Part shown: positions 40,114-57,299 of the stretch, in pieces | How positions within the stretch are numbered: position 1 is the stretch's first letter | Layout: every line of letters begins with the position of its first letter | Program-made: the position numbers and the translations under genes | The notes under the pieces: generated by a model | Databases searched by the model: none | Told to the model about the DNA's origin: nothing | What the model saw: only the letters and a program-made list of their open reading frames with translations | Virus record (IMG/VR): IMGVR_UViG_3300008740_000001 | Location: 62,001 to 126,000 of that record | Direction: 5' to 3' (one strand) | DNA length: 64,000 nt | Source: a virus

Positions 40114-41697
40114 ATGGCAAAACTGTCCAAAAATCAACAAATCAAAGAAATATTAAAGTGTGGTAAAGACCCAAGTTATTTTTTAAGAAACTATGCCAAG
40201 ATATCTCATCCGCTACATGGTCTAATACCATTTAAAACTTATGATTTCCAAGACGACCTTTTATGTGATTTTAACGATTATCGTTTTAATGTTATTCTGA
40301 AAGCACGTCAGCTTGGAATATCCACTATCACGGCCGGATACATTGTTTGGCTGATGATGTTTCATCGGGATAAAAATGTTTTAGTCATGGCCACAAAGTT
40401 TGGCACAGCCGCCAACCTAGTCAAAAAGGTAAAAGCAATTGTCCAGCATATTCCGCCATGGCTAAAGATTACAGATATCAAAATAGACAACAGAACGTCC
40501 TTTGAGCTGTTAAACGGCTCTCAGATTAAAGCCTCTTCGACCTCTTTCGATGCCGGTCGTTCAGAGGCTCTTTCTTTGTTGGTCATTGACGAGGCGGCGC
40601 ACGTAGAGGGTTTAGAAGAATTGTGGACCGGTTTGTACCCTACGCTGTCGACTGGTGGCCGCTGCATTGCTCTATCAACCCCAAATGGTGTGGGTAACTG
40701 GTTTCACCAAACTTATATCGATGCTGACGAAGAGATTAATGATTTCCATCCAACGTGTTTGCGCTGGGATGTTCATCCTGATCGCGACGTAGATTGGTTT
40801 GAACGCGAAACGCGTAACATGTCCAGACGCCAGATTGCTCAAGAATTAGAATGTAATTTCAATACTTCTGGAGACAGTGTGATCCATCCAGATGACATAT
40901 CTATTCTTGTTGAGAACATTCGCGAGCCACAGTATAGAACCGGATTTGACAGGAATTATTGGATCTGGGAAGAGTACATGACCGAGGCCTCCTACCTGTT
41001 GGTGGCAGATGTCGCTCGCGGTGACGGCGCAGATAGTTCTGCTTTCCACATTATAAAACTAGAAACGATGGAAATTGTTGCAGAATATAAAGGAAAACCT
41101 ACAATTGATGCGTATTCTAGGATATTATATGATGCAGGTCTTGAATATGGTCGATGCCTTTTGGTGGTGGAGAACGTTGGAGTTGGATACTCGGTGTTAG
41201 AAAAGCTTATAGAACTAGAGTATCCCAATTTATATTATTCTGTCAAGTCTACGCACGAGTTTGTGGAGCAATACCAAGCAGAAGTCATGTCTAACGCAGT
41301 CGCCGGTTTTACCACTTCTACAAAAACTAGACCATTAGTTATTGCAAAACTGGAGGAATTCATTAGAAATAAACTAATTAAGATATATTCCGAAAGAACT
41401 GTGGAGGAACTTAAAACATTTATTTGGTATAATGGCAAGCCACAGGCTATGAGGGGCTACTCTGATGACCTAACCATGGCATTGGCAATTGCGTGCTGGG
41501 TTAGAGATACAGCCCTAACAGTAAACCAGCGAAATGTTGAATATCAGAAGGCCTTTTTGAGTTCGATCCAAACCACTAGTAGAAAAATGAACACTACAAT
41601 TGCAGGGATGGAAGGACACAAGCGCTCCAAGGGCGACAGAATAACCGAGGAAGAGAAAAAGAGAATGAAAGAATTTATGTGGGTATATAAAGGATAA
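40114..41697 (+). CDS. gp17: Terminase large subunit gp17
   Basis: This 527-residue packaging motor has an N-terminal ATPase with a variant Walker A, KARQLGIST (residues 63-71), and Walker B LLVIDEAAH (Asp159, Glu160), followed by the coupling motif LSTPNG. The C-terminal RNase H-fold nuclease has the acidic triad in LVADVARGDGADS (Asp299), VVENVG (Glu353) and GYSDDLTMAL (Asp451/Asp452). It is shorter than T4 gp17 (610 residues), mainly at the ends. It cuts concatemeric DNA and pumps it into the prohead through the portal, whose gene starts 2 bases later. No inteins or insertions are visible. Confidence 0.95.
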   Translation: MAKLSKNQQIKEILKCGKDPSYFLRNYAKISHPLHGLIPFKTYDFQDDLLCDFNDYRFNVILKARQLGISTITAGYIVWLMMFHRDKNVLVMATKFGTAANLVKKVKAIVQHIPPWLKITDIKIDNRTSFELLNGSQIKASSTSFDAGRSEALSLLVIDEAAHVEGLEELWTGLYPTLSTGGRCIALSTPNGVGNWFHQTYIDADEEINDFHPTCLRWDVHPDRDVDWFERETRNMSRRQIAQELECNFNTSGDSVIHPDDISILVENIREPQYRTGFDRNYWIWEEYMTEASYLLVADVARGDGADSSAFHIIKLETMEIVAEYKGKPTIDAYSRILYDAGLEYGRCLLVVENVGVGYSVLEKLIELEYPNLYYSVKSTHEFVEQYQAEVMSNAVAGFTTSTKTRPLVIAKLEEFIRNKLIKIYSERTVEELKTFIWYNGKPQAMRGYSDDLTMALAIACWVRDTALTVNQRNVEYQKAFLSSIQTTSRKMNTTIAGMEGHKRSKGDRITEEEKKRMKEFMWVYKG

Positions 41698-41699
41698 AC

Positions 41700-43676
41700 A
41701 TGGCAGATAACGATAAAAATCCAAGAAACAATCAAGCGGATCTGTTTAAGAGACTAACGAGGCTCTTCTCAGGCCCGATTATTAATCATAGAAGCCAGTC
41801 TGGTCGTCGTATCCGACGCCAGCATATGGATAAATATGCTGCACAGTTTAAGTCAGCTAGCGGTCAGCAGTTTAAGAAGAGCACATATAACCCCCTTGAA
41901 CGTATTTCACACGATGCTATCGCTAACCAGCGTAGAGCAGAACGCTATGTAGATTTCGATCAGATGGAGTATATGCCAGAGTTGGCTTCTGCTTTGGATA
42001 TCTACGCTGACGAAATGACAACCTCGTCCGACTTGTCTCCGATGATTAGGATCAACTGTCCTAATGAGGAGATCAAAGCAGTCTTAAGCACGCTGTATGT
42101 AAATATTTTAAATGTCGATTCCAACCTATTCGGCTGGTGCCGCACCATGTCAAAATACGGAGATTTTTTCTTGTATCTAGATCTGGACGAAAGCTTTGGA
42201 ATTCGGACTGTGTTGCCTTTGCCCCCACAGGAGGTCGAGAGACTAGAAGGTCTAGACGCCACAAATCCAAATTATGTTCAGTACCAGTGGAATTCCGCAG
42301 GTATGACATTTGAGAATTGGCAAATTTCACACTTTAGAGTACTCGGCAACGACAAGTATGCTCCTTATGGCACATCTATCCTTGAACCAGCCCGCCGGAT
42401 CTGGCGCCAGTTGACGCTTATCGAAGATGCCATGATGGCGTATCGAGTTATTCGCTCCCCCGAACGCAGAGTTTTCTATATCGATGTTGGCCAGATCGCC
42501 CCACAAGATGTGGAGCAATATATGCAAAAGATTATTACGCAGATGAAGCGCCATCAGGTACTTGACCCCGACACAGGCCGTGTTGATCTTCGCTATAACC
42601 CAATGTCCGTTGAAGAAGACTACTACATCCCTGTCCGTGGCCAACAGTCAAACACTCGGATTGAAAATCTCCAAGGTGGCCAGCACGCCACAGCGATTGA
42701 CGACGTTAAGTACTTGAGAGACAAACTGTTCTCCGCACTAAAGATTCCGCAATCGTACTTAACGATGGGCGAAGGCGCCGAGGAAGATAAGACCACCCTC
42801 GCACAAAAGGACATTCGATTTGCGAGAACGATCCAGCGCTTACAGAGAGTCGTAATCAGCGAATTGGAAAAGATTGGGATTGTGCACTTATACACTCTCG
42901 GATTCAGAGGTGACGATCTTCTGAGCTTTAAGCTTACTTTGAACAATCCTTCACGCATTGCTGAATTGCAAGAACTTGAACACTGGCGCACGAAATTTGA
43001 AGTTGCCGGCGCAGCCACCGAGGGGTTCTTTTCAAGACGCTGGGTGGCACAACACTTATTCTCAATGTCGGAGGAAGAATTCCTACGCAACCAGCGAGAA
43101 ATTTACTATGATAGAAAATACGATGCATCTCTGCAGGCTGTTGCTGAAAGTGCCGCCGCCGAAGCAGCAGGAATGGCCGGCGGCATGCCACCTGCAGGCG
43201 GCGAAGAAGGGGCCCCGCCGCTTGATCCCGGCGCTGAAGGAGAAGAGGGCATGCCAGAGCCCGGCGCCGAGGAAATGCCACCAGATGCCGGTGGAGAGGC
43301 CGCACCCGAGCCTGAAACTGGAGATCTCCTTGCGGCTCCACCCGGATCGCGACCTTCACCCAGAATACACGATGGTCCCCATGGCGGCAAGAAATACTAT
43401 CCCGTTAAGAGTGATAAGAGGGATATGGGCGCCCGCAACAGAAGTTTTAACAGGCTAGCCACCCCAGAATTTGGCACTTATAGAACCACTAATTTAGGCG
43501 CCCCAGAGCTTCGATCTTTATCAAAGGGAATTTTTGCTGAAGAAGGGTCTAATTATAGTGATAGCGAAATAATACAAGAGAAGCGCCTGTTTGAGATAAA
43601 CAATGAGATTAGAACATTGATCGAAAATCTAGAAAAGAATTCGGAGTTGACACAAAATGAAGATGAAACACAATAA
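41700..43676 (+). CDS. gp20: Portal protein gp20
   Basis: This 658-residue protein is a T4-type portal (T4 gp20 is 524). Signatures include YVDFDQMEYMPELASALDIYADE (residues about 80-105), HFRVLGNDKYAPYGTSILEPARR in the middle, and the stem and crown region KYLRDKLFSALKIPQSYL. Residues about 483-543 are an extra low-complexity stretch rich in Gly, Ala, Pro and Glu, and a further extension carries it beyond T4's length. The dodecameric portal sits at one head vertex, nucleates assembly and is the channel for DNA. The gene starts 2 bases after the terminase stop and overlaps the next by 20 bases. Confidence 0.94.
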   Translation: MADNDKNPRNNQADLFKRLTRLFSGPIINHRSQSGRRIRRQHMDKYAAQFKSASGQQFKKSTYNPLERISHDAIANQRRAERYVDFDQMEYMPELASALDIYADEMTTSSDLSPMIRINCPNEEIKAVLSTLYVNILNVDSNLFGWCRTMSKYGDFFLYLDLDESFGIRTVLPLPPQEVERLEGLDATNPNYVQYQWNSAGMTFENWQISHFRVLGNDKYAPYGTSILEPARRIWRQLTLIEDAMMAYRVIRSPERRVFYIDVGQIAPQDVEQYMQKIITQMKRHQVLDPDTGRVDLRYNPMSVEEDYYIPVRGQQSNTRIENLQGGQHATAIDDVKYLRDKLFSALKIPQSYLTMGEGAEEDKTTLAQKDIRFARTIQRLQRVVISELEKIGIVHLYTLGFRGDDLLSFKLTLNNPSRIAELQELEHWRTKFEVAGAATEGFFSRRWVAQHLFSMSEEEFLRNQREIYYDRKYDASLQAVAESAAAEAAGMAGGMPPAGGEEGAPPLDPGAEGEEGMPEPGAEEMPPDAGGEAAPEPETGDLLAAPPGSRPSPRIHDGPHGGKKYYPVKSDKRDMGARNRSFNRLATPEFGTYRTTNLGAPELRSLSKGIFAEEGSNYSDSEIIQEKRLFEINNEIRTLIENLEKNSELTQNEDETQ

Positions 43677-44478
43677 GAAACGCAACACAGCTATATTGTA
43701 TGAGGTCCTGACACAACAGCTTACTAAGGCAGTGATCGATAAAGATAAATCAAAAAAGCAGCGTATCGCCAGTGTGTTACGTTCGTTTTTCAGCACCGGC
43801 AAAATTATGAACCGTGAGTTGGAGCTATACAAAGCTTTATACGAGACTAGGGGTCTGGAAGAGGGCCTATGTATTCGGCTGGTTCAAGAAGTGGCCAAAG
43901 CTCACGCGGCACTTGATCAGAAAGAGATCTACAAAGAACAGTCAAAACTGATTGATGTGATTAATAAAGAAGTTTCGAAGTCAGCATTTCAGGCGTTTAT
44001 TCCAAATTATAAATGCCTAGCCAGTATTTCGCAAATGTTTAATCCTTCTGTGACAATCAAGAACAAGGTTTTATTAGAGAAGCAAATTGTAGACTATATG
44101 TCAGTGACCAAACTGGAAGACAAGAAAGATCTGGTGCCAATTGACAACATTGTTTATACTAAGTTTGTGGAGAAGTTTAATGACAAATACAGCGATCACT
44201 TGTTAGAAGAACAGAAGACGCTTCTTAGTAAATATATTTCTTCTTTTGCCGACAACGGTGTTGAGCTTAAGATCTATTTAAACGAGGAAATCGAAAGACT
44301 CAAGGAAGAGATGGCTTCCTGTATTACACTTAAAGAGTTCATCGACGATAGCCACATGCAAGAGAAGGCCAAAAAGGTTGTTGAGTTATTGGACTCCACA
44401 TCTACCCGGGCCGTCAACACGGCTTTAGTAGAAGACGTGGTGAAGATTCAGTCTTTGGTCAAGGAGATAAGGGACTGA
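43657..44478 (+). CDS. Conserved prohead-module protein, unknown role
   Basis: This 273-residue protein starts inside the end of the portal gene (MKMKHNKKRNTAILYEVL). It is almost entirely helical, with Lys/Glu-rich heptad-like stretches and no cysteine pattern. I recognise it as a protein commonly found after the portal gene in T4-like marine phages, but no function is known to me. Its position corresponds to T4 gp67/gp68, the prohead core proteins, so a core or scaffold role is possible. Its stop overlaps the next start (TGATG). Confidence 0.6.
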   Translation: MKMKHNKKRNTAILYEVLTQQLTKAVIDKDKSKKQRIASVLRSFFSTGKIMNRELELYKALYETRGLEEGLCIRLVQEVAKAHAALDQKEIYKEQSKLIDVINKEVSKSAFQAFIPNYKCLASISQMFNPSVTIKNKVLLEKQIVDYMSVTKLEDKKDLVPIDNIVYTKFVEKFNDKYSDHLLEEQKTLLSKYISSFADNGVELKIYLNEEIERLKEEMASCITLKEFIDDSHMQEKAKKVVELLDSTSTRAVNTALVEDVVKIQSLVKEIRD

Positions 44479-45020
44479 TGGGCATTAAAATCAAAATTGG
44501 CAAGTCTAAAGTAACTGAGCCGGTTACTAGAAAGTTTGAATTAAAGATTAGAAAGTCGCTGGATGGCAACTTGATGATTTTTGATCATGCCGATATTGAT
44601 ATTGTAATCATGCCTTCCAAGAAAAAGATTCTTACACTTCCAAAAGAGATCATGACTGATGCTGTCTATGGTGCTCAAAATAGATTGATGGCACACCTGA
44701 GAAGAAAGGGTGTTATCGATGTAGCTTCTGTACAGGGCGGGAACGTGTATGGCTCAATAGAAGCGATCATTGCTGAAAGCGTTGATGGTTTAGATTCAGT
44801 AAAGATGGTTTTGTTAAACATTGATAAATTTATCGATGAAGAGCGCCCCTACTTCGACTTTGTTAAGGGCTACGAAGATGAGGCCTCTGACGTGTACACT
44901 GACCCAGATGATCTGCACTCTACCGACCTAGGAGATGTGAGCCATCACGATACGAAGGGATCTATCCGCCCGGGCTGGGTAAGAGATCCATACGGCCTAT
45001 CCCAACTTTACAAAATCTAG
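44478..45020 (+). CDS. Conserved prohead-module protein, unknown role
   Basis: This 180-residue protein follows by stop-start overlap. The N-terminal half is beta-rich (TRKFELKIRKSLDGNLMIFDHADIDIV). The middle is helical (AQNRLMAHLRRKGVIDVASVQGG), and the C-terminus is acidic, with a final RPGWVRDPYGLSQLYKI tail. It has no membrane segments. Similar proteins sit between portal and protease genes in large T4-like phages. A head-assembly role is inferred from that constant position only. Confidence 0.6.
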   Translation: MGIKIKIGKSKVTEPVTRKFELKIRKSLDGNLMIFDHADIDIVIMPSKKKILTLPKEIMTDAVYGAQNRLMAHLRRKGVIDVASVQGGNVYGSIEAIIAESVDGLDSVKMVLLNIDKFIDEERPYFDFVKGYEDEASDVYTDPDDLHSTDLGDVSHHDTKGSIRPGWVRDPYGLSQLYKI

Positions 45021-45029
45021 AGGTGATGT

Positions 45030-45365
45030 TTGAGTATATTAGTGAATTTATTATGGTTTATCCTGTGTTCTTATGGGTTGACCCAGATACTTGTATACGG
45101 TTCTCTCTTTAACAGAATAAGACCCCGTAAGGAATGGCTTAAAGGCGCCGGCGAATTATTCCATTGTCCAATGTGCATGGGATTTTGGGTTGGTGCTTTT
45201 TTGTTTTGTATTTCTTCGCACACCGAACTATTTACATTTGAGCAGAATTTAGTAAACTTATTTATTTGTGGCTGGGTCTCTTCTGGCACATCATATATAA
45301 TGAATGTTTTGTTTTGCGACAACGGAATTCAACTAGGAGTTAACAATGGCAAAGACATGGACTAA
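45030..45365 (+). CDS. DUF1360-type small membrane protein
   Basis: This 111-residue protein starts at TTG behind AGAGGTGA. It has about three hydrophobic segments (residues 1-23, 50-63 and 72-95). A Cys46-Pro-Met-Cys49 pair followed by MGFWVGA matches the CPxCxGFWxG signature of the DUF1360 family, found in phages and bacteria. The positively charged loop RIRPRKEWLK lies between the first and second segments. Its function is unknown; placement beside the prohead protease gene suggests expression with head genes. It overlaps a tiny ORF by 20 bases. Confidence 0.72.
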   Translation: MSILVNLLWFILCSYGLTQILVYGSLFNRIRPRKEWLKGAGELFHCPMCMGFWVGAFLFCISSHTELFTFEQNLVNLFICGWVSSGTSYIMNVLFCDNGIQLGVNNGKDMD

Positions 45366-45444: not shown

Positions 45445-46044
45445 ATGAAGAAAGTGCTTTTACGAGAATATTATGAACTATGCGAAGGTGGCGTTTGCCA
45501 AGATCTCTTAACTGAAGAGGAAAAGAGGTATGTGGCAAACGGAGGCATGATTTTGTCTGGCGTTATGCAGAGATCTGACGCCCAAAATGGAAATGGCAGA
45601 ATTTATCCTCACAAGACCCTCCAGCGAGAAGTCGAAAATTACAATAAGCTTGTGCGAGAGTCCCGAGCCTTGGGTGAATTAGACCACCCTGAAGATTCCG
45701 TCATCAATCTTAAGAACGCTTCACACTTAGTCACTGACATCTGGTGGGACAATAAGGATGTGATGGGCAAAGTAAAAGTATTGAACACTCCGGCCGGTAA
45801 GGTTCTGCAAGAACTGGTTAACAGCGGAGTAAAGCTTGGGATATCCTCCAGAGGCCTAGGTTCAGTTTCCGAGTCCACCGGCGGCACAATTGTTGAAGAT
45901 GATTTTCAGTTGATTTGTTTTGATTTCGTCTCTGAGCCCTCAACCACAGGTGCTTTCATGGTGAAGGAGAACAAAGAGCCAAATATTTTCACCAAGGCCG
46001 ATAAGATAAATCGAATTTTAAATGATATTTTGAGAGACAAATGA
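45445..46044 (+). CDS. gp21: Prohead core protease gp21
   Basis: I chose the ATG at 45445 (199 residues; T4 gp21 is 212) because a GAAGG site precedes it; the GTG at 45421 lies within the hairpin. The herpesvirus-assemblin-like protease fold of gp21 is supported by GGMILSGVMQRSDAQNGNGR near the N-terminus, the GELDHPE motif with catalytic His81, and the LGISSRGLGS motif with catalytic Ser134 or Ser135. The protease matures the prohead by cutting scaffold and capsid proteins after (L/I)-x-E sites. The next gene starts within its stop codon (ATGA). Confidence 0.93.
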   Translation: MKKVLLREYYELCEGGVCQDLLTEEEKRYVANGGMILSGVMQRSDAQNGNGRIYPHKTLQREVENYNKLVRESRALGELDHPEDSVINLKNASHLVTDIWWDNKDVMGKVKVLNTPAGKVLQELVNSGVKLGISSRGLGSVSESTGGTIVEDDFQLICFDFVSEPSTTGAFMVKENKEPNIFTKADKINRILNDILRDK

Positions 46045-46484
46045 AAAAAGAAGAATTAAAGGCAGCCCTAAAACCGCTAATCAAAGAGTGCATCAAGGAG
46101 GTGATGTTTGAAGACGATGTGTTGTCTTCCGTGATTAAGGAAGTCATTAAAGGCACGTCTTCTGCACAAGTGGTAACAGAGGTAAAGACGGAACAAAAGC
46201 CTGCACCGGCGCCCGAGAGGTTCGGTGCAGGCCGTCCCGATCCTGCAAAAGCTCTAGCAGAGAGAAAGAGTAAACTTCTTGGAGCAATCGGCTCGGAAGC
46301 GTTCAATGGGATTGATATTTTTGAAGGTACCGCCCCACTGAGCAAAGGAGCAGAAAGTTCAGATGGCCCACATATCCCAAGCGTGCTGGGGGACGATCCT
46401 GCAGACTCGGGAGTCGATATCACCGGACTGTTCTCTTCTGCTGGCCATACTTGGAAAACAATATCTAGTGGGATGAAGAAGTAA
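46041..46484 (+). CDS. Small prohead-module protein with helical leader
   Basis: This 147-residue protein starts MKKEELKAALKPLIKECIKEV, a leader-like amphipathic helix recalling the N-terminus of the protein at 39232. A Pro/Ala/Glu-rich linker with PAPAPERFGAGRPDP follows, and the C-terminus ends SAGHTWKTISSGMKK. The gene overlaps the protease gene (ATGA), and the bS21 gene starts on the base after its stop. The family is unknown to me; an internal head or core protein cut by gp21 is plausible but unproven. Confidence 0.58.
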   Translation: MKKEELKAALKPLIKECIKEVMFEDDVLSSVIKEVIKGTSSAQVVTEVKTEQKPAPAPERFGAGRPDPAKALAERKSKLLGAIGSEAFNGIDIFEGTAPLSKGAESSDGPHIPSVLGDDPADSGVDITGLFSSAGHTWKTISSGMKK

Positions 46485-46724
46485 ATGGCAGCAGTAAACG
46501 TATCGGTAAGGGCCCGTGGTAGAGAACCGGCCGAAAAATTAATTCGACGGTTTATTAGAAAGTGTAAGAAAGAGAAAATTGTTGAGAGATATCGAGAGCG
46601 ACACGATCACTACGTCAAGCCCTCGGAAAAGAGAAGAATAAAGAGGAGAAAAGCGAAACGTCTTCGTGAATTAGACGAGCTTAAACGCTCAAAAATCAGG
46701 AAGCGTTCTAAATACAATAGGTAA
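46485..46724 (+). CDS. rpsU-like: Ribosomal protein bS21 homologue
   Basis: This 79-residue, very basic protein matches bS21. It has the conserved start VNVSVRARGREPAEKLIRRFIRKCKKE (compare V-x-x-x-E-P-x-x-x-A-L-R-R-F-K-R in E. coli) and a YVKPSEKRRIKRRKA segment corresponding to YEKPTxERKRAKA. A Lys/Arg-rich tail follows. bS21 binds the 30S platform near the anti-Shine-Dalgarno and is added late, so a phage copy could enter host ribosomes and bias initiation. bS21 genes are known in various uncultured and cultured phages. Here the gene begins directly after the previous stop (TAA-ATG), with no ribosome site of its own, so it is translationally coupled to the prohead module. Confidence 0.88.
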   Translation: MAAVNVSVRARGREPAEKLIRRFIRKCKKEKIVERYRERHDHYVKPSEKRRIKRRKAKRLRELDELKRSKIRKRSKYNR

Positions 46725-46802: not shown

Positions 46803-47210
46803 ATGTCATATGATCAATCACAGCCATATACAGTAGGGCTGCACAATGTAGGTTCGTATCAGGTCTCGGCAGTACCGTATATAACGGGCTCGGCTACATT
46901 GGCTGCGAACAGCGAGCATAAACTTGAATTCCCAAATGTGACCAGATCTGTGACGGTCGTAAATCATAGTTCAGAGACCATCCGCATACACTTTGTCTCT
47001 AAAGACGAGGGAAACGTGATGGGCGGGTATCATTACGTCGAACTTGATAGCGACGAGGATTCGTACACATTCAATGTGAAGTGTAATGTAATTTATGTTT
47101 CAACACCTTCTGGTAACTCAGGAGCGGCGGAATATAGAGTAATCGCAGAGTTGACCAATATTGCCCGCCACCGCATGTATGCCCTGACCGGTTCAGGAAT
47201 TTCAGAATAA
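46803..47210 (+). CDS. Small beta-rich structural protein
   Basis: This 135-residue protein has a good ribosome site (TAGGAG). The sequence is beta-rich, with alternating hydrophobic strands such as RSVTVVNHSSETIRIHFVS and CNVIYVSTPSGNSG, and ends HRMYALTGSGISE. This would fit a single jelly-roll or immunoglobulin-like decoration domain. I recognise no named family. It opens the array of fibre-like genes and is a candidate head decoration or fibre-anchor protein (inference). Confidence 0.6.
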   Translation: MSYDQSQPYTVGLHNVGSYQVSAVPYITGSATLAANSEHKLEFPNVTRSVTVVNHSSETIRIHFVSKDEGNVMGGYHYVELDSDEDSYTFNVKCNVIYVSTPSGNSGAAEYRVIAELTNIARHRMYALTGSGISE

Positions 47211-47222
47211 AGGAGAGTTAAA

Positions 47223-50006
47223 ATGGGTTTTGGAGGAGGCTTTAAGGGCGGCGAAGGAGATCTTGGTAGCGACCTTAAAATTAATGACGGTACCATAAAG
47301 ATTAAGGAGCAAGCTAGCGCCGAAAGCGATAGTACCGCGTATGGTCAAATTTGGGTAAAATCAAATGCCCCATGTGATTTATATTTCACGGATGATACGG
47401 GCCAAGATATTCGAATCACCAACGATGGTAGTCTTGCGGCTGCAGGTTCGGCATCTGCCGTCAAGGCCGACGATATTGAGGACGGAGACGCCGCCGTTAC
47501 CCTGCAGGCCGAGTCTGGCAATAATGTTACGGTCAATGCCACAGCCGCACAACTACAGTTAAAGACTACAACTTCCGGCGAACTAGATATTACATCAGCC
47601 GGCACACTTGATATTAACGCAGTCGCCGTAGATCTCGACGGATCCGGGGCTGTCACTATAGATACCAGCGACACTACAAATGGCGTCAAGATTGGCGCAT
47701 CAACGTCTGGCATGCCGATCACTCTCGGCCATGGTACTTCCGAAACCACGGTTGGAGACAATCTGGTAGTTACGGGAGATCTTAAACTCACCGGAAACGT
47801 TATTAAGGCGTCAGACGGCGGAAGCACTATTACATTAGATACTTCTGACAATGTTACGATTGCTGGTGATTTACAGATTGATGGGAACAACATCAAAGAT
47901 GCCGGCGGAAACCAAGGAATTACATTTGATGGAAGTGGACACACAACTATCGATGGAAACCTGACAGTAACCGGAAACGTCATTAAGGCTTCAGACGGCG
48001 GAAGCACCATTACAATGGACACGTCTGACAACGTTACAGTTGCGGGCACTCTTACCTGCTCGACAAGCCTAACTATCGGATCCGCAGCAATGAGCGAGGC
48101 AGATCTTGAACAGCTTGACGGTATCACTGCCGGCACTGCTGCTGCTAGCAAGGCCGTCGTATTAGACGGAAGCAAGAACATCGCTACCATCGGAACAGTT
48201 GGCTGTGGAGCTATCACTTCTACTGGCGCCTCATCTATGGGGAGTCTATCTGTTGCCGGCGCCCTCGATTGCGACACCAGCTTCACGCTTGATTCAGTAG
48301 CAATTAACGCAACAGAGCTTGGTTACATCGACGGCGTAACTGCTGGAACCGCCACTGCTTCCAAAGCTGTGGTTCTTGATTCCAACAAAGATATTGGCAC
48401 TATTCGAAACTTGACTATTGATGGGACGCTTTCAGACGGAAACTATACTTTCGATACAAGCGGGAATGTAAGTGGCCTCGGCACAGTCGGCTCAGGGGCT
48501 ATCACTTCTAGTGGCATAATCAAGACAGATGATACAACTGACGCGACTAGCAAGACTGATGGTTCACTTCAAACTGATGGTGGCTTAAGCGTTGCCAAGG
48601 CAATTTATAACGGAACAGCAGCTACGCTAGCCGCAGATTCCGGCGTTGTGACAATGGGCTCCACTACTGCAGCCACTGTTTCAGCCGCCGGCATCTTGAA
48701 TGTCAACAATACAACAGAAGCAACTTCGGCAACGGATGGTTCACTTCAAACTGATGGCGGACTTTCGGTTGTAAAGAGCGCCGTAATCGGAGACGACTTA
48801 GATCTCTTATCTGATGGCGCCATTCTTAACATCGGAAGTACTTCCAAGTTTACTGTAACAGATCAGGGCGCCAACAATTGCGTAATGGCCACTTCGGGTC
48901 ACAGACTAGCCTTTGGTCATGCTGATGAATATGTTAGCGGCGATGGCACCGATCTTACAATTAACAGTAGTGGAGAAATCAATCTTGACGCAACAACCGT
49001 GGATCTGAACGGGGCCCTCGATGTTTCAGGCGCCTCACAGTTTGGCAGCACCATTACGGTCGGAGTCGATGGCACTGGCTATGATGTGAAGTTCTTTGGA
49101 GCCACGTCCAGCGCGTACATGCTTTGGGACGAAGACGAAGACGATCTTGTCTTGGCCGGCGCAGCCCGGGCAGTTGTCCCAGATGGACAATTGGTTCTTG
49201 GTTCGACGGCAGTTTCTTCTACGGCCGCTGAGTTGAACAAGCTCGACGGTGCAGACAGTAACGTTACGGCAGCCAAGCTCAGTACGCTTTCTGCATTAAG
49301 CGATACAGAGATTGGTTACATCGATGGTTCGGGTACATCAGTTGTGGCCTCTAAAGCAGTTGTCGCAGATAGCAACAGAGATGTTGCCACGCTTCGAAAT
49401 CTTACCATTGATGGAACACTTTCAGATGGAAACTATACTTTTGATACCAGCGGTAACGTCAGTGGCCTAGGGACGGTTGGCTGCGGTGCTATCACTACAA
49501 CTGGTAACTTTACTGGTTCAGGCGCCCTAACTTCATTTGGTTCAGGCCTACACAGGATTACGGTCGATCAAGATATTCGTTACGCCGATACGGCTGACGC
49601 GTCAGTGGTGGTAGAACTATCCGGCGTTAAAATCCCAGCAAACGCAATTATTACGCGAGTCGTCGCAGTAGTAAAGACGATATCAAATCTGGGCTCAGCC
49701 GATTCAGGCGCCCACAAAGTAAACATCCAAATGTCCGCTACCAGTGGCACAAGTGCAGATGCAGCGATTTCCACTGGAACAGAACTTCTGGGCGGCGGTG
49801 TTTCCAACACAATTAGTAGTGACGGCGCCGCAGAGGATGTTGATATGACTTCGCTTGCTGATGTTTGGATGTGTAACGATATTGTCAAAAACGGAACTTC
49901 GGATCAGTATCTCTATATTTGCAACGGCGGCGACGTTGACAATGGAACCACCGACCCGTCTGCTGGCACCTTAACCGTTATTGTTGAATATTATGGTATG
50001 GACTAG
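47223..50006 (+). CDS. Repetitive fibre-like structural protein
   Basis: This 927-residue protein is built from imperfect beta-repeats rich in Gly, Ser, Thr, Asp and Asn. A 26-residue unit occurs at residues about 190-215 and 250-275. A 29-residue unit beginning RNLTIDGTLSDGNY occurs near 395-423 and 725-753. LGYIDGVTAGT-type and SLQTDGGLSV-type elements also recur. Such repeats form long triple-beta-helix shafts in phage fibres. The C-terminal about 150 residues (from RITVDQDIRYAD) are non-repetitive, with ELSGVKIPANAIIT and end TVIVEYYGMD, and probably form the globular tip. Its position inside the head module suggests capsid fibres or a side fibre; the attachment site is unknown. Confidence 0.72.
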   Translation: MGFGGGFKGGEGDLGSDLKINDGTIKIKEQASAESDSTAYGQIWVKSNAPCDLYFTDDTGQDIRITNDGSLAAAGSASAVKADDIEDGDAAVTLQAESGNNVTVNATAAQLQLKTTTSGELDITSAGTLDINAVAVDLDGSGAVTIDTSDTTNGVKIGASTSGMPITLGHGTSETTVGDNLVVTGDLKLTGNVIKASDGGSTITLDTSDNVTIAGDLQIDGNNIKDAGGNQGITFDGSGHTTIDGNLTVTGNVIKASDGGSTITMDTSDNVTVAGTLTCSTSLTIGSAAMSEADLEQLDGITAGTAAASKAVVLDGSKNIATIGTVGCGAITSTGASSMGSLSVAGALDCDTSFTLDSVAINATELGYIDGVTAGTATASKAVVLDSNKDIGTIRNLTIDGTLSDGNYTFDTSGNVSGLGTVGSGAITSSGIIKTDDTTDATSKTDGSLQTDGGLSVAKAIYNGTAATLAADSGVVTMGSTTAATVSAAGILNVNNTTEATSATDGSLQTDGGLSVVKSAVIGDDLDLLSDGAILNIGSTSKFTVTDQGANNCVMATSGHRLAFGHADEYVSGDGTDLTINSSGEINLDATTVDLNGALDVSGASQFGSTITVGVDGTGYDVKFFGATSSAYMLWDEDEDDLVLAGAARAVVPDGQLVLGSTAVSSTAAELNKLDGADSNVTAAKLSTLSALSDTEIGYIDGSGTSVVASKAVVADSNRDVATLRNLTIDGTLSDGNYTFDTSGNVSGLGTVGCGAITTTGNFTGSGALTSFGSGLHRITVDQDIRYADTADASVVVELSGVKIPANAIITRVVAVVKTISNLGSADSGAHKVNIQMSATSGTSADAAISTGTELLGGGVSNTISSDGAAEDVDMTSLADVWMCNDIVKNGTSDQYLYICNGGDVDNGTTDPSAGTLTVIVEYYGMD
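47790..47867 (+). repeat. 26-residue fibre repeat, copy 1
   Basis: Encodes TGNVIKASDGGSTIT followed by LDTSDNVTIAG. It pairs with the copy at 47970-48047, which lies 180 bases (60 codons) downstream. Confidence 0.8.
47970..48047 (+). repeat. 26-residue fibre repeat, copy 2
   Basis: Differs from the copy at 47790-47867 by two conservative residue changes (Leu to Met, Ile to Val) plus several silent base changes. Confidence 0.8.
48405..48491 (+). repeat. 29-residue fibre repeat, copy 1
   Basis: Encodes a unit starting RNLTIDGTLSDGNY and ending SGLGTVG. The protein sequence is identical to the copy at 49395-49481. Confidence 0.85.
49395..49481 (+). repeat. 29-residue fibre repeat, copy 2
   Basis: All 29 residues match copy 1 at 48405-48491, although by my count 16 of the 87 bases differ. 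Every one of those differences is silent. Confidence 0.85.
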
Positions 50007-50024
50007 GAACAAGGGGAGTGTTGA

Positions 50025-50885
50025 ATGAGTTTTGGATGGGCATATGTAGGATGCGAAGACATAGCGGTTACAAGTCTACTTGGACCCTCCGGGTCCATTC
50101 TTGTCAGAACGGACACGTTTGTCCTCTCCGGTTCGCAGAATTATAAGCTCCTTCAAGAAGAGCCCGGCGAAGATGGCGAAACTCATAGTCACGCCTTATT
50201 ATTAACTGGCTCGTTCAAACAGCTAGGCAATGTTCATCGACTCGGATCCACACATATCACTGGAGCCCTAGGAGTCTCTGGCGATGTGACCGTGCAAGGA
50301 AACATCCATGCGAACTCATATAATGTCGTTAATACATCGATTACCGAAATAGAAGCTGCCGGTTCAAGTAACCTAGGCGACTCATTCGGGGATCTCCACA
50401 CTATAACTGGCTCTCTGGTTGTTGCTGGTCTCGGCACCCAGCGCCCCTCGTTGGTTGTAACGGGCTCTACACTGGGTGACAATGTACCGAGCACAGCTCT
50501 CCAAACTGCTTTTGTTGGTGTCGCGACAAACAGGCCCCCGACAATGTTGGCAGTCAGCGGCAGTTACTCAGTAAACTATGACAAGCTACCAACTAACTGC
50601 TTAGCGGCCACTTTGACGTTAACCAGTTCAATTGTGGGCGTAAACGCAAATTTGGCCGTAGCAGTCACCTTACCTCCAGCTACATCGACTCCCGGCCGGA
50701 TGGTTATTATCAAAGACGAAGCCGGTACCCAGCCGCGCACCACTAGCAACAAGATATCCGTTTTACCCGGCACTTCCAACGGAGTTGCCGACACTATTGA
50801 CGATCAATCTGCATACTACATTATGGGCTCTAGAGCAGCCTTATCGCTCTATTCAGACGGCATCAGTAAATGGTTCGTGTTCTAA
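50025..50885 (+). CDS. Fibre-like protein with shared C-terminal beta-domain
   Basis: This 286-residue protein has an AAGGGGAG ribosome site. The N-terminus is MSFGWAYVGCEDI. The middle contains typical fibre segments (ITGALGVSGDVTVQGNIHANSY). The C-terminal about 90 residues form a beta-domain with TLPPATSTPGRMVIIKDEAG, then DTIDDQSAYYIMGSRAAL and the ending SLYSDGISKWFVF. The same domain type ends the proteins at 50909 and 52256. This tip is common in phage fibres and probably trimerises or binds the receptor. Partner or attachment point unknown. Confidence 0.68.
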   Translation: MSFGWAYVGCEDIAVTSLLGPSGSILVRTDTFVLSGSQNYKLLQEEPGEDGETHSHALLLTGSFKQLGNVHRLGSTHITGALGVSGDVTVQGNIHANSYNVVNTSITEIEAAGSSNLGDSFGDLHTITGSLVVAGLGTQRPSLVVTGSTLGDNVPSTALQTAFVGVATNRPPTMLAVSGSYSVNYDKLPTNCLAATLTLTSSIVGVNANLAVAVTLPPATSTPGRMVIIKDEAGTQPRTTSNKISVLPGTSNGVADTIDDQSAYYIMGSRAALSLYSDGISKWFVF

Positions 50886-50908
50886 GCCATGCGTGGAGGG
50901 CACGATAG

Positions 50909-52063
50909 ATGGGATACAATGTATTATCAGGTTCAATTACTTCATACGGCTCAATCCAGATCACTGGCTCATTCAAAGCCATGGGTACGGGAGATCAGGG
51001 ATTCGTCGGAGACGGTTCTTTACTGACGGGTCTGCCCCATACAGAAGTATATTCAATTACAAATGCCAGTACTGATCGTCTCATAACAACGAATGACGGC
51101 AGCGGGAATTCATTCAACGCCGAAGATGGTTTGACATATAGTAGTGCTACGCGCACACTGACTGTAAAAGGTCTCGATGACGTACATGATACAACGATAA
51201 CAGTTGATATTACAGGTTCAAACAAATCTCAACTTCTACACGTAAGATCTAACGCAAACTCAAATATTCTGTTTGTAACGGGTTCTGGCAAAGTTGGTGT
51301 CGGCACCGGTACCCCAATCGCAACACTTGATGTAGCCGGAAAGATAGCGATCTCTGCGGAGAGTAATACTCCTGCTCAGCCGGCCGATGGGAAAGGGTTT
51401 CTATATAGCAAGTCAGACGGCAAACTGTATTGGCGTTCATATGATGTTACGGAAGTCGATTTGACCAGCGGTACTACACCGACTTTTAAGACGCTTGCTG
51501 TGTCGGGACAAGACGATGTAGTGGCCGATAGTACGACCGACACTCTGACTTTGGTTGCAGGAAGCAACATGACAATTACTACAGATGCCGCCGGCGACTC
51601 GATTACTTTTACATCCACCGGAGGAGGTGGCGGAGGCGGCTCTGGCATTTTTACAGAAGTAGACGGTTCAAACGCTTATGTTACTAGCAGTTTGAAGCTC
51701 GGCGGTACCGGCGCGACTAGCCACCAGTTGGCCGTTGTTGGTAGCACTTTACTCCTCGGCGGCATGGTACATAAGAGAGTAAGCAAGACCGCTGATTATA
51801 CGATCACTACGGGAGATTACTATATCGGTGTCGATACGACAGGCGGAACGTTTACGCTAACTTTGCCAGTTGCGAACAATACAGCGGAAGGTCAAACGTT
51901 TATTGTAAAAGATGAAGGAGGCGCCTCGAATACAAATGCTGTGGTGATCCATACTTCTGGCGATGCTGACAAAATTGATGGCGGTGATTCAGTGGTTTTG
52001 GAGTCTCCATACGCCGCTATAGCTATATACAGCGACGGTACATCGCGTTATTATGTGTACTAG
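50909..52063 (+). CDS. Fibre-like protein with shared C-terminal beta-domain
   Basis: This 384-residue protein starts MGYNVLSGSITSYG, like the MSYNLMSGSVEF start at 54813. Repetitive segments such as VGIGTGTPIATLDVAG-like units (VGVGTGTPIATLDV) are typical of fibre shafts. A Gly-rich hinge of about nine glycines lies near residue 240. The C-terminal domain has TFTLTLPVANNTAEGQTFIV, then DKIDGGDSVVLESPYAAIAI and the ending YSDGTSRYYVY, shared with 50025 and 52256. After the stop lies a T-rich structured intergenic region. Confidence 0.68.
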   Translation: MGYNVLSGSITSYGSIQITGSFKAMGTGDQGFVGDGSLLTGLPHTEVYSITNASTDRLITTNDGSGNSFNAEDGLTYSSATRTLTVKGLDDVHDTTITVDITGSNKSQLLHVRSNANSNILFVTGSGKVGVGTGTPIATLDVAGKIAISAESNTPAQPADGKGFLYSKSDGKLYWRSYDVTEVDLTSGTTPTFKTLAVSGQDDVVADSTTDTLTLVAGSNMTITTDAAGDSITFTSTGGGGGGGSGIFTEVDGSNAYVTSSLKLGGTGATSHQLAVVGSTLLLGGMVHKRVSKTADYTITTGDYYIGVDTTGGTFTLTLPVANNTAEGQTFIVKDEGGASNTNAVVIHTSGDADKIDGGDSVVLESPYAAIAIYSDGTSRYYVY

Positions 52064-52255
52064 TTTTTACAATAGTAGTTCGCTCTTTTAAAAAAAGCCA
52101 TTTTTTTTTCATTTTTTTTGTTTTTTTATTGTGACTAGCCTTTGGACGACTACTTAGAGGTGCTCGTCTGACCGTAATATCATGGCGCTTGCCGTGGTAT
52201 ATAAACAATCTTTTTTATAAAAGAGCTATTAAATCACATATGGAGGGATTAAAAA
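52064..52255 (+). other. T-rich intergenic region with nested inverted repeats
   Basis: This 192-base gap has no ORF of note. It has three T runs (52101-52109, 52112-52119 and 52121-52127). A 9-base inverted repeat, GCTCTTTTA at 52082-52090 and TAAAAGAGC at 52218-52226, encloses a hairpin with a 10-base stem, 52177-52186 pairing with 52191-52200 around GCTT (two G-U pairs). A TATGGAGGG ribosome site precedes the next ATG. It could end the previous transcript or act as a structured 5' leader for the next gene. Confidence 0.5.
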
Positions 52256-54676
52256 ATGGCTTATAAATTTCAATTAGGATCCGCTGTTCTCAGTGGTTCC
52301 ATTACACAGGAAGGTGACATTACTGGTTCATTCGACCTGTCTATCGCCACAGGTGGTACCATCGGCTGTGCAGCCGATAAAGACCTGATGACGCTCACAG
52401 ACGGCGTTGTCACCGTTGCCGGCGAGGTCTCTATGACCACGCTCGACATTGGTGGCACCAATGTTACGTCCACTGCCACCGAGCTTAACTTGCTCGACGC
52501 AATTACTAGAGGTTCTATCCTTTATGGAAACGCTTCCGGCGCCACGGCCCGGTTGGCAAAAGGTAGCGCGAACACGGTACTTTCATCCGATGGTACTGAC
52601 ATTGCGTACAGTACTGTTAGCAACGACATGCTCGCAGGCTCGATTGGCGCAGGCAAACTCGCAGGTGCTATTCCTGACAGCAAGCTGCAAACGATTGCTA
52701 CTGCAGGCAAAGTGGCACTCACCGCTCTTGAGATCGACGGTGGTACCGACATAAACGGCGCGCTCGCTGATGCAGATTTGATTATTATTGACGACGGTGC
52801 TGGCGGAACCAACAAATACTCTGCAATGTCCAGAGTCAAGACCTATGTGGCTGATCTGACGCTCACAACTGCCGCACAAACCAACATTACTTCTGTTGGC
52901 AACCTCGCCGGCGGCACTATCGCTAGCGGCTTCGGCGCAATCGATAACGGCACCAGCGGCATCACCTCGTCCGGCGTGCTTAAGCAGTCTGCCGACCTCG
53001 CCGCAGCCCCGAGCACTTCTCAGGCCGTCGCAGGTCAAGCAGGCTCAATCACTTTAGGTGTCGGCGCGGATGCTGGTATCGGTGTTCACAATGATCACCT
53101 TTACATTGAGAACAATACTGACACGAAGGATATTATCTTCAGAGTCCACGATGGCACTGATTATGATGACATCTTCTCGGTTGGTGGTATGGGCCTCGAA
53201 GTGGGCGACACCACGCCATTCATCTTCGGTGCATCTGAAGACTTTGCCTTGTCATGGGACGGCAGCGGCGGCGCATTCGTGATGAAAGCAAACGTCGAAG
53301 ATCAGCCTTTCGTAATGGACTGGCAATCCGACCAAGGCGATGACGCTGCGGACGCGTGGAGGTGGAGCATCAACAAAACCTCTGGAGTTATGACACTGGC
53401 CAGCAAGATTGACGGCGACTTCGACGACGTGCTGGTACAGCACACTCCCAATAATACCTTGGCCGATTCGATCAGCGCCTTCGGAGGCTCTGTTACCGTT
53501 GGTAAGGATCTCACCGTGACTGGCAACCTTACTATCAATGGAACAACAACCACTGTCGATACCACAAACATGCTGGTCAAAGATAGTTTGATTGGTTTAA
53601 ACGAAGGTGCCAGTTCTAACGCAAACGACTGCGGATTCATCATTGAACGTGGTTCAACTGGTAACAACGCTGCATTCATTTGGGACGAGTCTGCTGACAA
53701 GTTCACAATGGGCTTAACCACCGATTTGCCGAGCGCCACTGGTGACCTTACCGTCACTGCTGGTACACTTGTTGTAGGTACTTTAGAGGGTGACGTAACT
53801 GGTGATTTGACTGGTACCGTCCAGACCGCTGCACAAACCAACATTACAAGTCTTGGTACACTTACTGCACTTACTGTTGATCAAATTGCTATGGACGGCA
53901 AGGTCATGACCATGACCGGCAACACCGGTGATACTGCAGTCTTTACTGTAGGTACCAACGGCGACCTGAGTATCGTAACGACTGACACGGCCGCAGCCGC
54001 TGCTAACATCGCCATCACCGCAGATGGTACGGCAGAACTTGCTGGCACTACGGTCACCCTGAACTCCGGCGGTGGCGTTACTATTGATGCAGACAACGGA
54101 ACCATCACCTTTGCGGATGGTGGCGTATCTCTGGGAACGATCACATCGTCTGGATACTCCGGTGCTGCCGCTAGCGCGGCAACTGCGACTGTTGCTACAA
54201 CAGTGACAGTTTCAGACAACGAGTCTACAGCTGAGAATAACGCAATTCTCTTTGCCGCTGGCGCAGCCGGTTCTGGTAATGTTGGTGTTGAAGCCGATGC
54301 CGGCGATCTCCACTACAACCCCAGCACTGGTTTGTTGACGGCACCGGTCTTCTCCGGCGCTGTGCTGGCTAGCCTGAATTTTGTTGCTGTGGCTTCGTTG
54401 GGGAACGATTTCGCAAATGCCTACGCTCTGCAAGCCGGTAAGTATAACGTAGTCGATGGCGACCTTGATGCAAATCACTACGTGAAGCTTCCCAGCGGCG
54501 CCGCCGTTGGCGACCTAGTTCATGTTAAGCTGGAAGGAGCCGGCGGGTTCAAACTGTTCATTGAGTCTTATGCAGATGCTGTCAAGATTGATGGAGGCGA
54601 CTCCATTGTTCTCGAATCAGACTATGCTGCGGTCACATTGATTCAGGCTGACACCAACGATTGGCGAGTATTCTAA
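52256..54676 (+). CDS. Large fibre-like protein with shared C-terminal beta-domain
   Basis: This 806-residue protein starts MAYKFQLGSAVLSGSITQEG. The long shaft has elements such as VTSTATELNLLDAITRG and repeated TAAQTNITSLGTL segments. It also has a central patch NTLYIEN-like strand region (HNDHLYIENNTDTKDIIFRVHDG) and VTGNLTINGTTTTVDTTNMLVKD; these are hallmarks of repetitive phage fibres. The C-terminus has VKIDGGDSIVLESDYAAVTL and the ending WRVF, homologous to the tips at 50025 and 50909. The gene looks richer in GC than its neighbours and is preceded by a T-rich region and followed by a strong terminator. It therefore forms its own cassette, possibly exchanged between phages. Confidence 0.7.
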   Translation: MAYKFQLGSAVLSGSITQEGDITGSFDLSIATGGTIGCAADKDLMTLTDGVVTVAGEVSMTTLDIGGTNVTSTATELNLLDAITRGSILYGNASGATARLAKGSANTVLSSDGTDIAYSTVSNDMLAGSIGAGKLAGAIPDSKLQTIATAGKVALTALEIDGGTDINGALADADLIIIDDGAGGTNKYSAMSRVKTYVADLTLTTAAQTNITSVGNLAGGTIASGFGAIDNGTSGITSSGVLKQSADLAAAPSTSQAVAGQAGSITLGVGADAGIGVHNDHLYIENNTDTKDIIFRVHDGTDYDDIFSVGGMGLEVGDTTPFIFGASEDFALSWDGSGGAFVMKANVEDQPFVMDWQSDQGDDAADAWRWSINKTSGVMTLASKIDGDFDDVLVQHTPNNTLADSISAFGGSVTVGKDLTVTGNLTINGTTTTVDTTNMLVKDSLIGLNEGASSNANDCGFIIERGSTGNNAAFIWDESADKFTMGLTTDLPSATGDLTVTAGTLVVGTLEGDVTGDLTGTVQTAAQTNITSLGTLTALTVDQIAMDGKVMTMTGNTGDTAVFTVGTNGDLSIVTTDTAAAAANIAITADGTAELAGTTVTLNSGGGVTIDADNGTITFADGGVSLGTITSSGYSGAAASAATATVATTVTVSDNESTAENNAILFAAGAAGSGNVGVEADAGDLHYNPSTGLLTAPVFSGAVLASLNFVAVASLGNDFANAYALQAGKYNVVDGDLDANHYVKLPSGAAVGDLVHVKLEGAGGFKLFIESYADAVKIDGGDSIVLESDYAAVTLIQADTNDWRVF

Positions 54677-54715
54677 GATACCCTTGGATTCTTACGAATC
54701 TCGACTCTATTTACT

Positions 54716-54749
54716 GGGGGCCCTCTTCGGGGGGCCTCCTTTTTATTTT
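54716..54749 (+). terminator. Rho-independent terminator with TTCG tetraloop
   Basis: GGGGGCCCTC (54716-54725) pairs with GGGGGCCTCC (54730-54739) over ten positions (two G-U) around a TTCG loop, followed directly by TTTTTATTTT. It lies 40 bases after the 806-residue fibre gene. This is a textbook intrinsic terminator. Confidence 0.9.
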
Positions 54750-54769
54750 GGCGGATTTGTTAACACTCT

Positions 54770-54780
54770 ACTATTTATAA
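54770..54780 (+). promoter_or_regulatory. ACTATTTATAA element (candidate late promoter)
   Basis: An exact copy of the recurring element, 20 bases after the terminator at 54716-54749 and 32 bases before the ATG at 54813. A new transcript is expected to start here, since the terminator stops upstream transcription. Confidence 0.55.
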
Positions 54781-54812
54781 AAGAACCTTAGAAGTGTCTT
54801 GGAAGGTATTAA

Positions 54813-57299
54813 ATGTCATATAACTTAATGTCAGGTAGCGTAGAGTTCATCGGTGATACTCTCGGCCAAGTAGAAGATATTGTAAACGTGCACACAGCAC
54901 AGACTATTAGTGGTGCAAAAACGTTTAACAACATCACCGCATCCGGCGGAAACCCGGTTGGGCTCACTGTCGTGGGCCAACTTTCAATAGATCAGGATAT
55001 TATCCACGCCGGCGATAACGATACTAAACTCAATTTTCCCGGCGCCAATGAAGTCCGCCTTTATGCGGGAAATCAGAATTTCCTTCAAGTCAAGGACACT
55101 ACAGGGGTTGATATCAACAAAGCCGCAGATGACACCGGACATTTCACTTGGTGGGCGAAAAGTACTTTTAATTCTAAACAGTTCTATCTAGACGCAGATC
55201 TTGGCACGGTTTCCATCGGAGGTGCCACACCACTAGATGATAGTGTTAAGGTTCATATTTCTGGAAGCGCCGGAGCAGCTGAAGATCCAATTCCGGCCCT
55301 GTTAGCTGTTGGTGACAGAAAACATCCTGTTCTAGCTGTTTCTGGAAATGTGTACGGTCGCGGCGCGAGCGACTGGAAGATCGAGATGTCGGGCGTGTTA
55401 AAGACAAACAGGCCTATTCTGCTCGAAGGCCCAAGTGCCAATCTTGTTTCAGCGGGCCCCATTAGTGCGTCTATTGTACAAGCCAGCCAACTCTCTGGGG
55501 CCCTCAATAATCTTGATTCGCAGTCACTATATTACATGAATGCAGGATCCCCCGGAGCAGAAAAGTATCTAGCAGTGAAACTGGATGCCGATGAGGGTCT
55601 TACCAAAACTGCTTCTGGTCTTGCGCTAGACATCCACAGCATAGCCACAGTGGGCTCTATTAATACGAGCACATCGGGACAAGATTTTATTGCAATTTCG
55701 GATAACGACGATAGCAACTCTATAAAGAAAATGGGCGTTGGTTCTCTTCTCGCCCTCACTATGGATCCTTCAGTAAACAACCTAGGTTCAGGAGGCCAAG
55801 TTGCTAAAACAGTCACAACCCGCGTACCTCAGTTTAGGTCGATTGTCGGCGGAACCGGAATTACTGTTGCGACAAACACTAACGACCTTACTATTAATGC
55901 TGCAGTTGCCGGCGCCGGCGGTGATCATGGAATGGTTACTTATAACTATACCGGCTCTACCACTGGAGCCGCATGGTTACGTTATGATCCTACTCCGAAT
56001 GATCCTACATCAATCTGGGCATCTGGCAATCCCGCGAAAAGCCATGTTCCTGAAGCAGTTAACGGAACTTTTCAAGTTGGTGATTCGGGGTTCTTGACGG
56101 CTTTTACTGGTTCGGTACACGTCACCGGCGCCGCCGCACTGGGCGACAATACCGTCCTTTTCGACGTGTCAAGCAACACGGTGCCTTCAATATTCTTTGT
56201 GAGCGCCTCTTCCAACGCTGGATACGTCGGGATTGGCGGGGATGGTCTCCATGTACCGGCCCACACTCTTTCTGTAAAAGGTAATGTTAATGTCACAAGC
56301 TTTGTGTCCGCCTCCGGCTTCTCTGGCGATGGATCGAACCTTGCAAACGTTCCCATCACGCCCGCAGGCCCAGCCAATGCGCTGCAGCTAAACCAATCTG
56401 GCAGCATCGGAGGATCCGGCGATCTTCTGTTGAAAAGGACAGAGACTCCAGCCCAGAGCGAGATGAGTCTAATAGGTAATTTGACTTGTACAAGTTTCGT
56501 TTCAGCCTCTGGTTTCGCCGGCGATGGTTCAAACATCACAGGCCTACCCGCGTCTGTCGCTGGTCCGCATAACTCAATTCAGGTTAATCGCAGCGGTTCT
56601 CTCCATGGCGATCCCATGTTTAAGGCTATAGCTGCAACTGCACCCGGCGGTGGCGACGAGGTTAGATTGTTCCTTACGGGTACCCTTACAGCCACAGAGG
56701 TTTCTTCTTCTGGAGGATTCAAAGCTGGTGGTTTCGGCGGGAATAACGCTTCTTATGACTTGTATAATTTGGGCGGGGCCAAGATTGCCGATCTTAGACT
56801 TTGGGACGGCGCCGCCCTGACTCTTTATGATTCCGGCAACGCGAGAGCACAACTGGCAATCGGCATGGAGAGCGACGGCCAGCTACAACTAAAAACTCAA
56901 GGTGGTCAAACTTACTTCCATGCATCAGAAATGGACACCATAATCAGCGGAAGCGCCATCCGGCTTCAAGGCGCCGTCCATGTGAATTCGAGCATCAAAA
57001 CTGCCAATTATATCCTTGATGTAGAAGATCGAGTGGTAATCTTTAATTCACCGCATGGCCTCACCGCCTCCTTGCCAAAAATCACAGCGGAAAATGTCGG
57101 AGTTGTATATACTATCAAGAATATTAATACGGGCGCCGTTAAGATAACCGGAAGTGGTGATCCGCCTCTTGGTCCACAGAATATTGACGGAAATGAGTAC
57201 GTAACAATTCCCCAGACATCAGGGATGGGCAAATACAGGACCGTAACGGCTGTTGATACGGGAGCGGACTACGATTGGATCATCATTGGCGAGAACTAA
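54813..57299 (+). CDS. Large fibre-like structural protein
   Basis: This 828-residue protein starts MSYNLMSGSVEFIGDTLGQV, then HTAQTISGAKTF, a motif widespread in phage fibre proteins. The shaft carries repeated VNVTSFVSASGFSGDGSNL and LTCTSFVSASGFAGDGSNI units (residues about 490-590). A LYDSGNARAQLAIGMESDGQ stretch follows. The end has YTIKNINTGAVKITGSGD, then a variant tip ending DWIIIGEN, distinct from the WFVF/WRVF tips upstream. It probably forms a separate fibre type. It is the last fibre gene before the scaffold gene. Confidence 0.68.
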   Translation: MSYNLMSGSVEFIGDTLGQVEDIVNVHTAQTISGAKTFNNITASGGNPVGLTVVGQLSIDQDIIHAGDNDTKLNFPGANEVRLYAGNQNFLQVKDTTGVDINKAADDTGHFTWWAKSTFNSKQFYLDADLGTVSIGGATPLDDSVKVHISGSAGAAEDPIPALLAVGDRKHPVLAVSGNVYGRGASDWKIEMSGVLKTNRPILLEGPSANLVSAGPISASIVQASQLSGALNNLDSQSLYYMNAGSPGAEKYLAVKLDADEGLTKTASGLALDIHSIATVGSINTSTSGQDFIAISDNDDSNSIKKMGVGSLLALTMDPSVNNLGSGGQVAKTVTTRVPQFRSIVGGTGITVATNTNDLTINAAVAGAGGDHGMVTYNYTGSTTGAAWLRYDPTPNDPTSIWASGNPAKSHVPEAVNGTFQVGDSGFLTAFTGSVHVTGAAALGDNTVLFDVSSNTVPSIFFVSASSNAGYVGIGGDGLHVPAHTLSVKGNVNVTSFVSASGFSGDGSNLANVPITPAGPANALQLNQSGSIGGSGDLLLKRTETPAQSEMSLIGNLTCTSFVSASGFAGDGSNITGLPASVAGPHNSIQVNRSGSLHGDPMFKAIAATAPGGGDEVRLFLTGTLTATEVSSSGGFKAGGFGGNNASYDLYNLGGAKIADLRLWDGAALTLYDSGNARAQLAIGMESDGQLQLKTQGGQTYFHASEMDTIISGSAIRLQGAVHVNSSIKTANYILDVEDRVVIFNSPHGLTASLPKITAENVGVVYTIKNINTGAVKITGSGDPPLGPQNIDGNEYVTIPQTSGMGKYRTVTAVDTGADYDWIIIGEN

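Follow-up and report, generated by a model that had tools for sequence, protein, structure and literature searches.

Why should a phage carry a gene for a ribosomal protein among the genes that build its head? The question is raised by a small gene in a 64,000-nucleotide stretch of viral DNA (hereafter the window; positions 62001–126000 of a 203,859-base virus record), the source of which is a large, probably marine bacteriophage. Ribosomal protein bS21 was the commonest viral ribosomal protein in the survey of Mizuno et al. 2019 (PMC6375957). Chen et al. 2022 described bS21 among head genes, with a prohead protease near it in 310 of 900 phages, and reported that phage bS21 is expressed with late genes, that the bS21 region is not transcribed as a single operon and that the protein might serve a take-over of the ribosome (PMC9723584). 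The position beside prohead genes, late expression, incorporation into ribosomes and the take-over idea are therefore already published (PMC9723584, PMC6375957). What is added here is the near-fixation of the gene in one clade, its coupled same-strand junction with a partner gene that we call CN147, and a non-aromatic residue at position 59 in a phage that uses Shine–Dalgarno (SD) sequences.

Identity of the ribosomal protein

A preliminary description of the window, made from the letters alone, had assigned a 79-residue open reading frame (ORF) to bS21 on the basis of motifs. The ORF is present exactly where it was claimed, and it indeed encodes bS21, a phage copy of the ribosomal protein:

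46485–46724, + strand: bS21 gene, ATG to TAA, 79 amino acids, net charge about +23; matches in Pfam, NCBIfam, PHROG and the PDB

The profile search that had been proposed as a check was significant, exceeding the curated cut-offs of both Pfam (PF01165, E = 1.4e-9, 37.9 bits against a gathering score of 27) and NCBIfam (TIGR00030, an equivalog model, 31.4 bits against 28.95); PHROG 21469, ‘ribosomal protein S21’, also matched (E = 1.4e-4). The PDB chains matched by phmmer were almost all bS21 (best E = 4e-5), and all 28 PDB matches of a 42-sequence family profile at E ≤ 0.001 were bS21/S21 (best E = 9e-12). The AlphaFold model (pLDDT 87; helices at residues 16–29, 32–40 and 46–78) has the helical bS21 fold with its long C-terminal helix. 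The top four Foldseek matches of this model were bS21 chains of solved ribosomes, at E-values (0.06–2) that are weak, as would be anticipated for a protein so small and helical.

The protein shares its fold and family with cellular bS21 (Escherichia coli, Pseudomonas, Acinetobacter and others in the PDB), but differs in a phage-type core, RFIKKCKKEKIVE, and in a C terminus that reads KYNR rather than RLY or KLY. A search of 84,980 genomes for cellular relatives carrying phage-specific bS21 patterns, which is a narrow test, found none, and tblastn with P0001 against named phages and plasmids gave no match at the thresholds used. The whole virus record holds a single copy of bS21. Two sequence pairs have measurable dS, and both show purifying selection (dN/dS of 0.065 and 0.021); between the window bS21 and its nearest relative, synonymous sites are saturated and hence yield no ratio.

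The head operon

The preliminary description had placed the gene inside a prohead operon, and the annotation of its neighbours agrees. Genes for TerL, portal, S77 protease and CN147 precede bS21 on one strand, in the order TerL–portal–x–x–x–protease–CN147–bS21, and the Gp23 capsid gene follows at 58460, so that prohead protease, portal, TerL and major capsid protein (MCP) are each only a few genes away from bS21:

40114–41697, + strand: terminase large subunit, TerL (PF03237; phrog_2, E = 6e-52)
41700–43676, + strand: T4-type portal protein, gp20 (PF07230, E = 2e-77)
43657–44478, + strand: conserved head-operon protein, function not assigned (synteny)
44478–45020, + strand: conserved head-operon protein, function not assigned (synteny)
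45030–45365, + strand: small conserved head-operon protein, DUF1360 (PF07098, barely passing at 21.5 bits against 21; conserved order)
45445–46044, + strand: prohead core serine protease, peptidase S77 (PF03420, E = 1e-29; phrog_207, E = 2e-53)
46041–46484, + strand: CN147, conserved partner gene, 147 amino acids (alignment; beside bS21 in 79 of 80 loci)
46803–47210, + strand: conserved gene downstream of bS21 with its own AGGAG (SD; 53 of 80 loci)
58460–60304, + strand: major capsid protein, Gp23 (PF07068, E = 1.6e-71)

The protease more likely starts at the ATG at 45445 than at an upstream GTG, because its relatives align from that ATG. Between the head genes and the capsid gene, 47223–57299 holds probable fibre or adhesion paralogues (beginning at 47223, 50025, 50909, 52256 and 54813) with common repeats and a similar C-terminal domain. 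A further ORF of 4,753 amino acids at 5662–19920, with a concanavalin-A-like/laminin-G domain, probably encodes a giant protein for the tail or adhesion.

Conservation of the gene cassette

Among 80 IMG/VR loci selected by bS21, 79 have the protease and a CN147 homologue (CN) upstream of bS21 on the same strand; the 80th begins 132 nt before the match and is thus cut off and not judgeable. As a check independent of bS21, loci were picked by the protease instead, and CN and bS21 are both present in 51 of the 53 such loci with at least 2.5 kb of downstream sequence. In this clade, bS21 therefore comes close to being a core gene of the head operon. The protease-selected loci that lack bS21 (L144, which keeps CN, and L139, which has neither) are natural losses that provide a useful comparison.

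bS21 protein distances track those of the protease (Mantel rho 0.46) and of CN (0.42), values that 0 of 500 permutations equalled. The nearest relative, L002, is 71% identical to the window in bS21, 84% in TerL, 80% in the protease and 55% in CN. In 7 of 67 unique loci, a gene related to that at 46803–47210 stands between CN and bS21; in relatives with this arrangement (L037, L041, L046, L048, L052, L080 and L008), the bS21 ORF has an Arg/Asn-rich N-terminal extension of roughly 25–40 amino acids. In a 484-kb phage of the set (LR756508.1), the portal ORF (L013:17793–21953) is 1,386 amino acids long with its portal matches in three separated pieces, and looks broken up by several intein-like inserts.

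The CN147–bS21 junction

In the window, the stop codon of CN147 abuts the start codon of bS21:

46465–46487, + strand: 3′ end of CN147 and start of bS21, GGGATGAAGAAGTAAATG, TAAATG with a weak SD

In 60 of 67 unique loci, −20 to +16 nt separate the CN stop from the bS21 start, and in 36 of these the two genes overlap or are at most 5 nt apart; the other seven are those with the intervening gene described above. This spacing makes coupled translation likely, and bS21 is probably translationally coupled to CN147 within the head operon. The preliminary description had gone further in giving bS21 no ribosome site of its own. This is true of the window copy, before which there is no 4-nt SD match at normal spacing and for which the anti-SD duplex energy (−4.0 kcal/mol) is weaker than at about three-quarters of the phage’s starts; it does not extend to the family, as an SD of at least 4 nt precedes bS21 in 59 of 67 unique relatives.

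CN147 found no family in Pfam or PHROGs, and its predicted model consists mostly of short helices at low confidence (pLDDT 66). The alignment has a conserved N-terminal helix and a YNGV(D/N)(L/I)FEGT motif, the (L/I)FE part of which fits I/L-x-E, a site of the T4 gp21 prohead protease type; the T4 enzyme cleaves after L/I-x-E (PMC9026906). On the strength of this short motif and the T4 cleavage rule, CN147 is a probable prohead-core or head protein that may be cut by the neighbouring protease.

Shine–Dalgarno use and the anti-SD pocket

Across the whole record, an SD of at least 4 nt precedes 68% of gene starts compared with 17% of internal ATGs, and at 5 nt the figures are 38% and 4%; these fractions are approximate, as starts came from a simple script rather than a trained gene finder. 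The preliminary description had suggested that late phage mRNAs, with strong AGGAG sites, could be favoured by the phage bS21. Late genes show no significant SD excess over the rest of the genome (Fisher p = 0.13–0.62), and TerL, protease, CN147 and bS21 all have weak starts (−1.9 to −4.0 kcal/mol, against a median of −6.3 for all starts); the capsid gene start is strong (−8.5 kcal/mol). Because SD use is genome-wide and not specific to late genes, an SD-based preference for late mRNAs finds no support here. An SD-using phage also implies an SD-using host, in which case the SD by itself would not distinguish phage mRNAs from those of the host. The SD use of the phage would argue against a Bacteroidia host.

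In Flavobacterium johnsoniae, bS21 contributes to concealment of the anti-SD, and a Y54A mutant raises translation of a strong-SD reporter (PMC9976891); an aromatic residue occupies the Tyr54 position in all phages of Chen et al. (PMC9723584). Tyr54 was placed by HMM alignment with 7jil and falls opposite a basic position: Arg59 in the window bS21, Arg in 62 of 68 phage sequences and aromatic in none of the 68. Judged from this alignment, the clade is without the aromatic residue that stacks on the anti-SD in Bacteroidia bS21, and an Arg at this site is consistent with a phage that uses SDs throughout its genome.

Comparison with known phage bS21 genes

The closest described arrangement is that of freshwater Bacteroidetes phages (PMC9723584), in which bS21 likewise lies in the TerL–portal–prohead protease–MCP region by a conserved hypothetical gene. 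There, however, bS21 is on the opposite strand (five described clades), whereas all 79 judgeable loci of the present set have it on the same strand. Those phages have the aromatic residue and predicted Bacteroidetes hosts, whereas the phage described here has Arg, uses SDs and probably couples bS21 to CN147. Late transcription was demonstrated for the Bacteroidetes phages.

The E-values of the next two comparisons come from four-sequence searches. RpsU of Microcystis phage Mel-JY01 (PP395634) shows the same strand and order (TerL, portal, protease, one gene, RpsU, capsid) and matches the family profile (E = 2e-15), but it is distant from the window bS21 (35% identity over 48 residues) and the gene upstream of it has no clear homology to CN147 (E = 0.004). 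The bS21 of Pelagibacter phage HTVC008M is also matched by the profile built here (E = 3e-13), but it is 67 amino acids long and, unlike that of the window phage, neighbours cobS, Hsp20 and sliding clamp genes. Proteobacterial bS21 chains have Lys, which is non-aromatic, near the Tyr54 position.

Proposed function

We favour, as the probable though far from certain explanation, that bS21 is a near-fixed member of the head operon in a clade of large T4-like phages and provides a late, coupled supply of an exchangeable 30S protein. bS21 would probably be made alongside the late head proteins as translation runs on from CN147. It would then enter host 30S subunits, replacing or topping up the easily exchanged host bS21, and initiation on phage mRNAs would stay efficient at the time of heavy demand for capsid proteins. 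For the window phage we infer late timing (read from gene position only), incorporation into ribosomes, and a part in supply or tuning rather than in selection by SD strength. HTVC008M bS21 enters E. coli 70S ribosomes, which then retain only about 5% of in vitro activity (PMC6375957); given that figure, a phage bS21 could act as an inhibitor of translation or depend on partner factors.

The same measurement would suit a different role, in which ribosomes that carry phage bS21 translate host mRNAs poorly and so shut off the host, while other factors spare late phage translation. We regard this as improbable: the HTVC008M protein was tested in a mismatched host, and general inhibition would be ill-timed if bS21 is produced late with the capsid proteins. 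A selective take-over, in which phage bS21 biases the choice of start sites towards late phage mRNAs with strong SDs at the expense of host mRNAs, has more in its favour, as bS21 adjoins the SD helix in the 2020 2 Å E. coli ribosome (PMC7550191), its removal or mutation alters mRNA selectivity in F. johnsoniae (PMC9976891) and the hypothesis has also been put forward elsewhere (PMC9723584). For this phage it nevertheless seems unlikely, in view of SD use across the genome (68% versus 17%) with no late excess (p = 0.13–0.62), the weak SDs of the head genes adjoining bS21 and the probable use of SDs by host and phage alike. Moreover, some huge-phage S21 proteins have KLY-like C termini with no clear relation to the ribosome-binding-site consensus, and phage S21 showed no link with predicted ribosome binding sites (PMC7550191).

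The tight coupling to CN147, and the conserved I/L-x-E of CN147 that resembles T4 gp21 sites (PMC9026906), would also fit a role in the head itself: the very basic bS21, made together with a probable prohead-core protein, would be packaged in the head and injected, to act on ribosomes as the next infection begins. Encapsidation has been raised as a possibility before (PMC9723584). Against it, the window bS21 begins almost at the ribosomal fold, with no N terminus resembling a capsid-targeting sequence, and operon position alone explains the co-expression, so we give this role little credence. The broader proposal, that bS21 is no sporadic auxiliary gene but a core, translationally coupled part of head morphogenesis, made in step with CN147 and perhaps encapsidated and delivered with the genome, is a long shot to the same degree. 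With bS21 encapsidated, modification of ribosomes would begin in the first minutes of the next round of infection.

Phage bS21 is a particularly clear example of a ribosome component carried by a virus. Near-fixation, the coupled junction and Arg in place of Tyr54 together imply that the association of bS21 with head genes holds in SD-using phages too; phage bS21 therefore cannot in general be explained by blocking of the anti-SD. Were incorporation demonstrated, this clade would stand beside the Bacteroidetes phages as a second mechanistic class for comparison.

Host and tmRNA

Several leads to the host or to relatives were pursued and set aside. The nearest named TerL proteins, from a Flavobacterium phage (48%) and a Microcystis phage (45%), are too distant to indicate a host. 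The KLY/RLY C terminus was considered as a host hint, but the window protein ends in KYNR and the [KR][LM]FR or similar ends of 17 of 67 relatives are suggestive only. Membership in the RNA-polymerase-encoding mReC phages was rejected on finding no Rpb1/Rpb2 domains, and the 75-amino-acid ORF at the syntenic spot in Flavobacterium phage immuto is not bS21.

tmRNAs of phages are already known (PMC9004378). The phage record carries a complete one-piece tmRNA outside the window (L014:19518–19938; Rfam RF00023, 120 bits) with the tag ANNNYYFEESRLAA. The tag pattern, used as a host lead, matched three genomes, but none of the matching stretches holds a tmRNA. SmpB was sought in nine records and found in none. 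A complete tmRNA is also present in 6 of 15 related records tested, with tags such as ANNNNHFEQRLAA and ANDADYDLALAA, and the occurrence of bS21 and tmRNA in one clade suggests a broader management of the ribosome.
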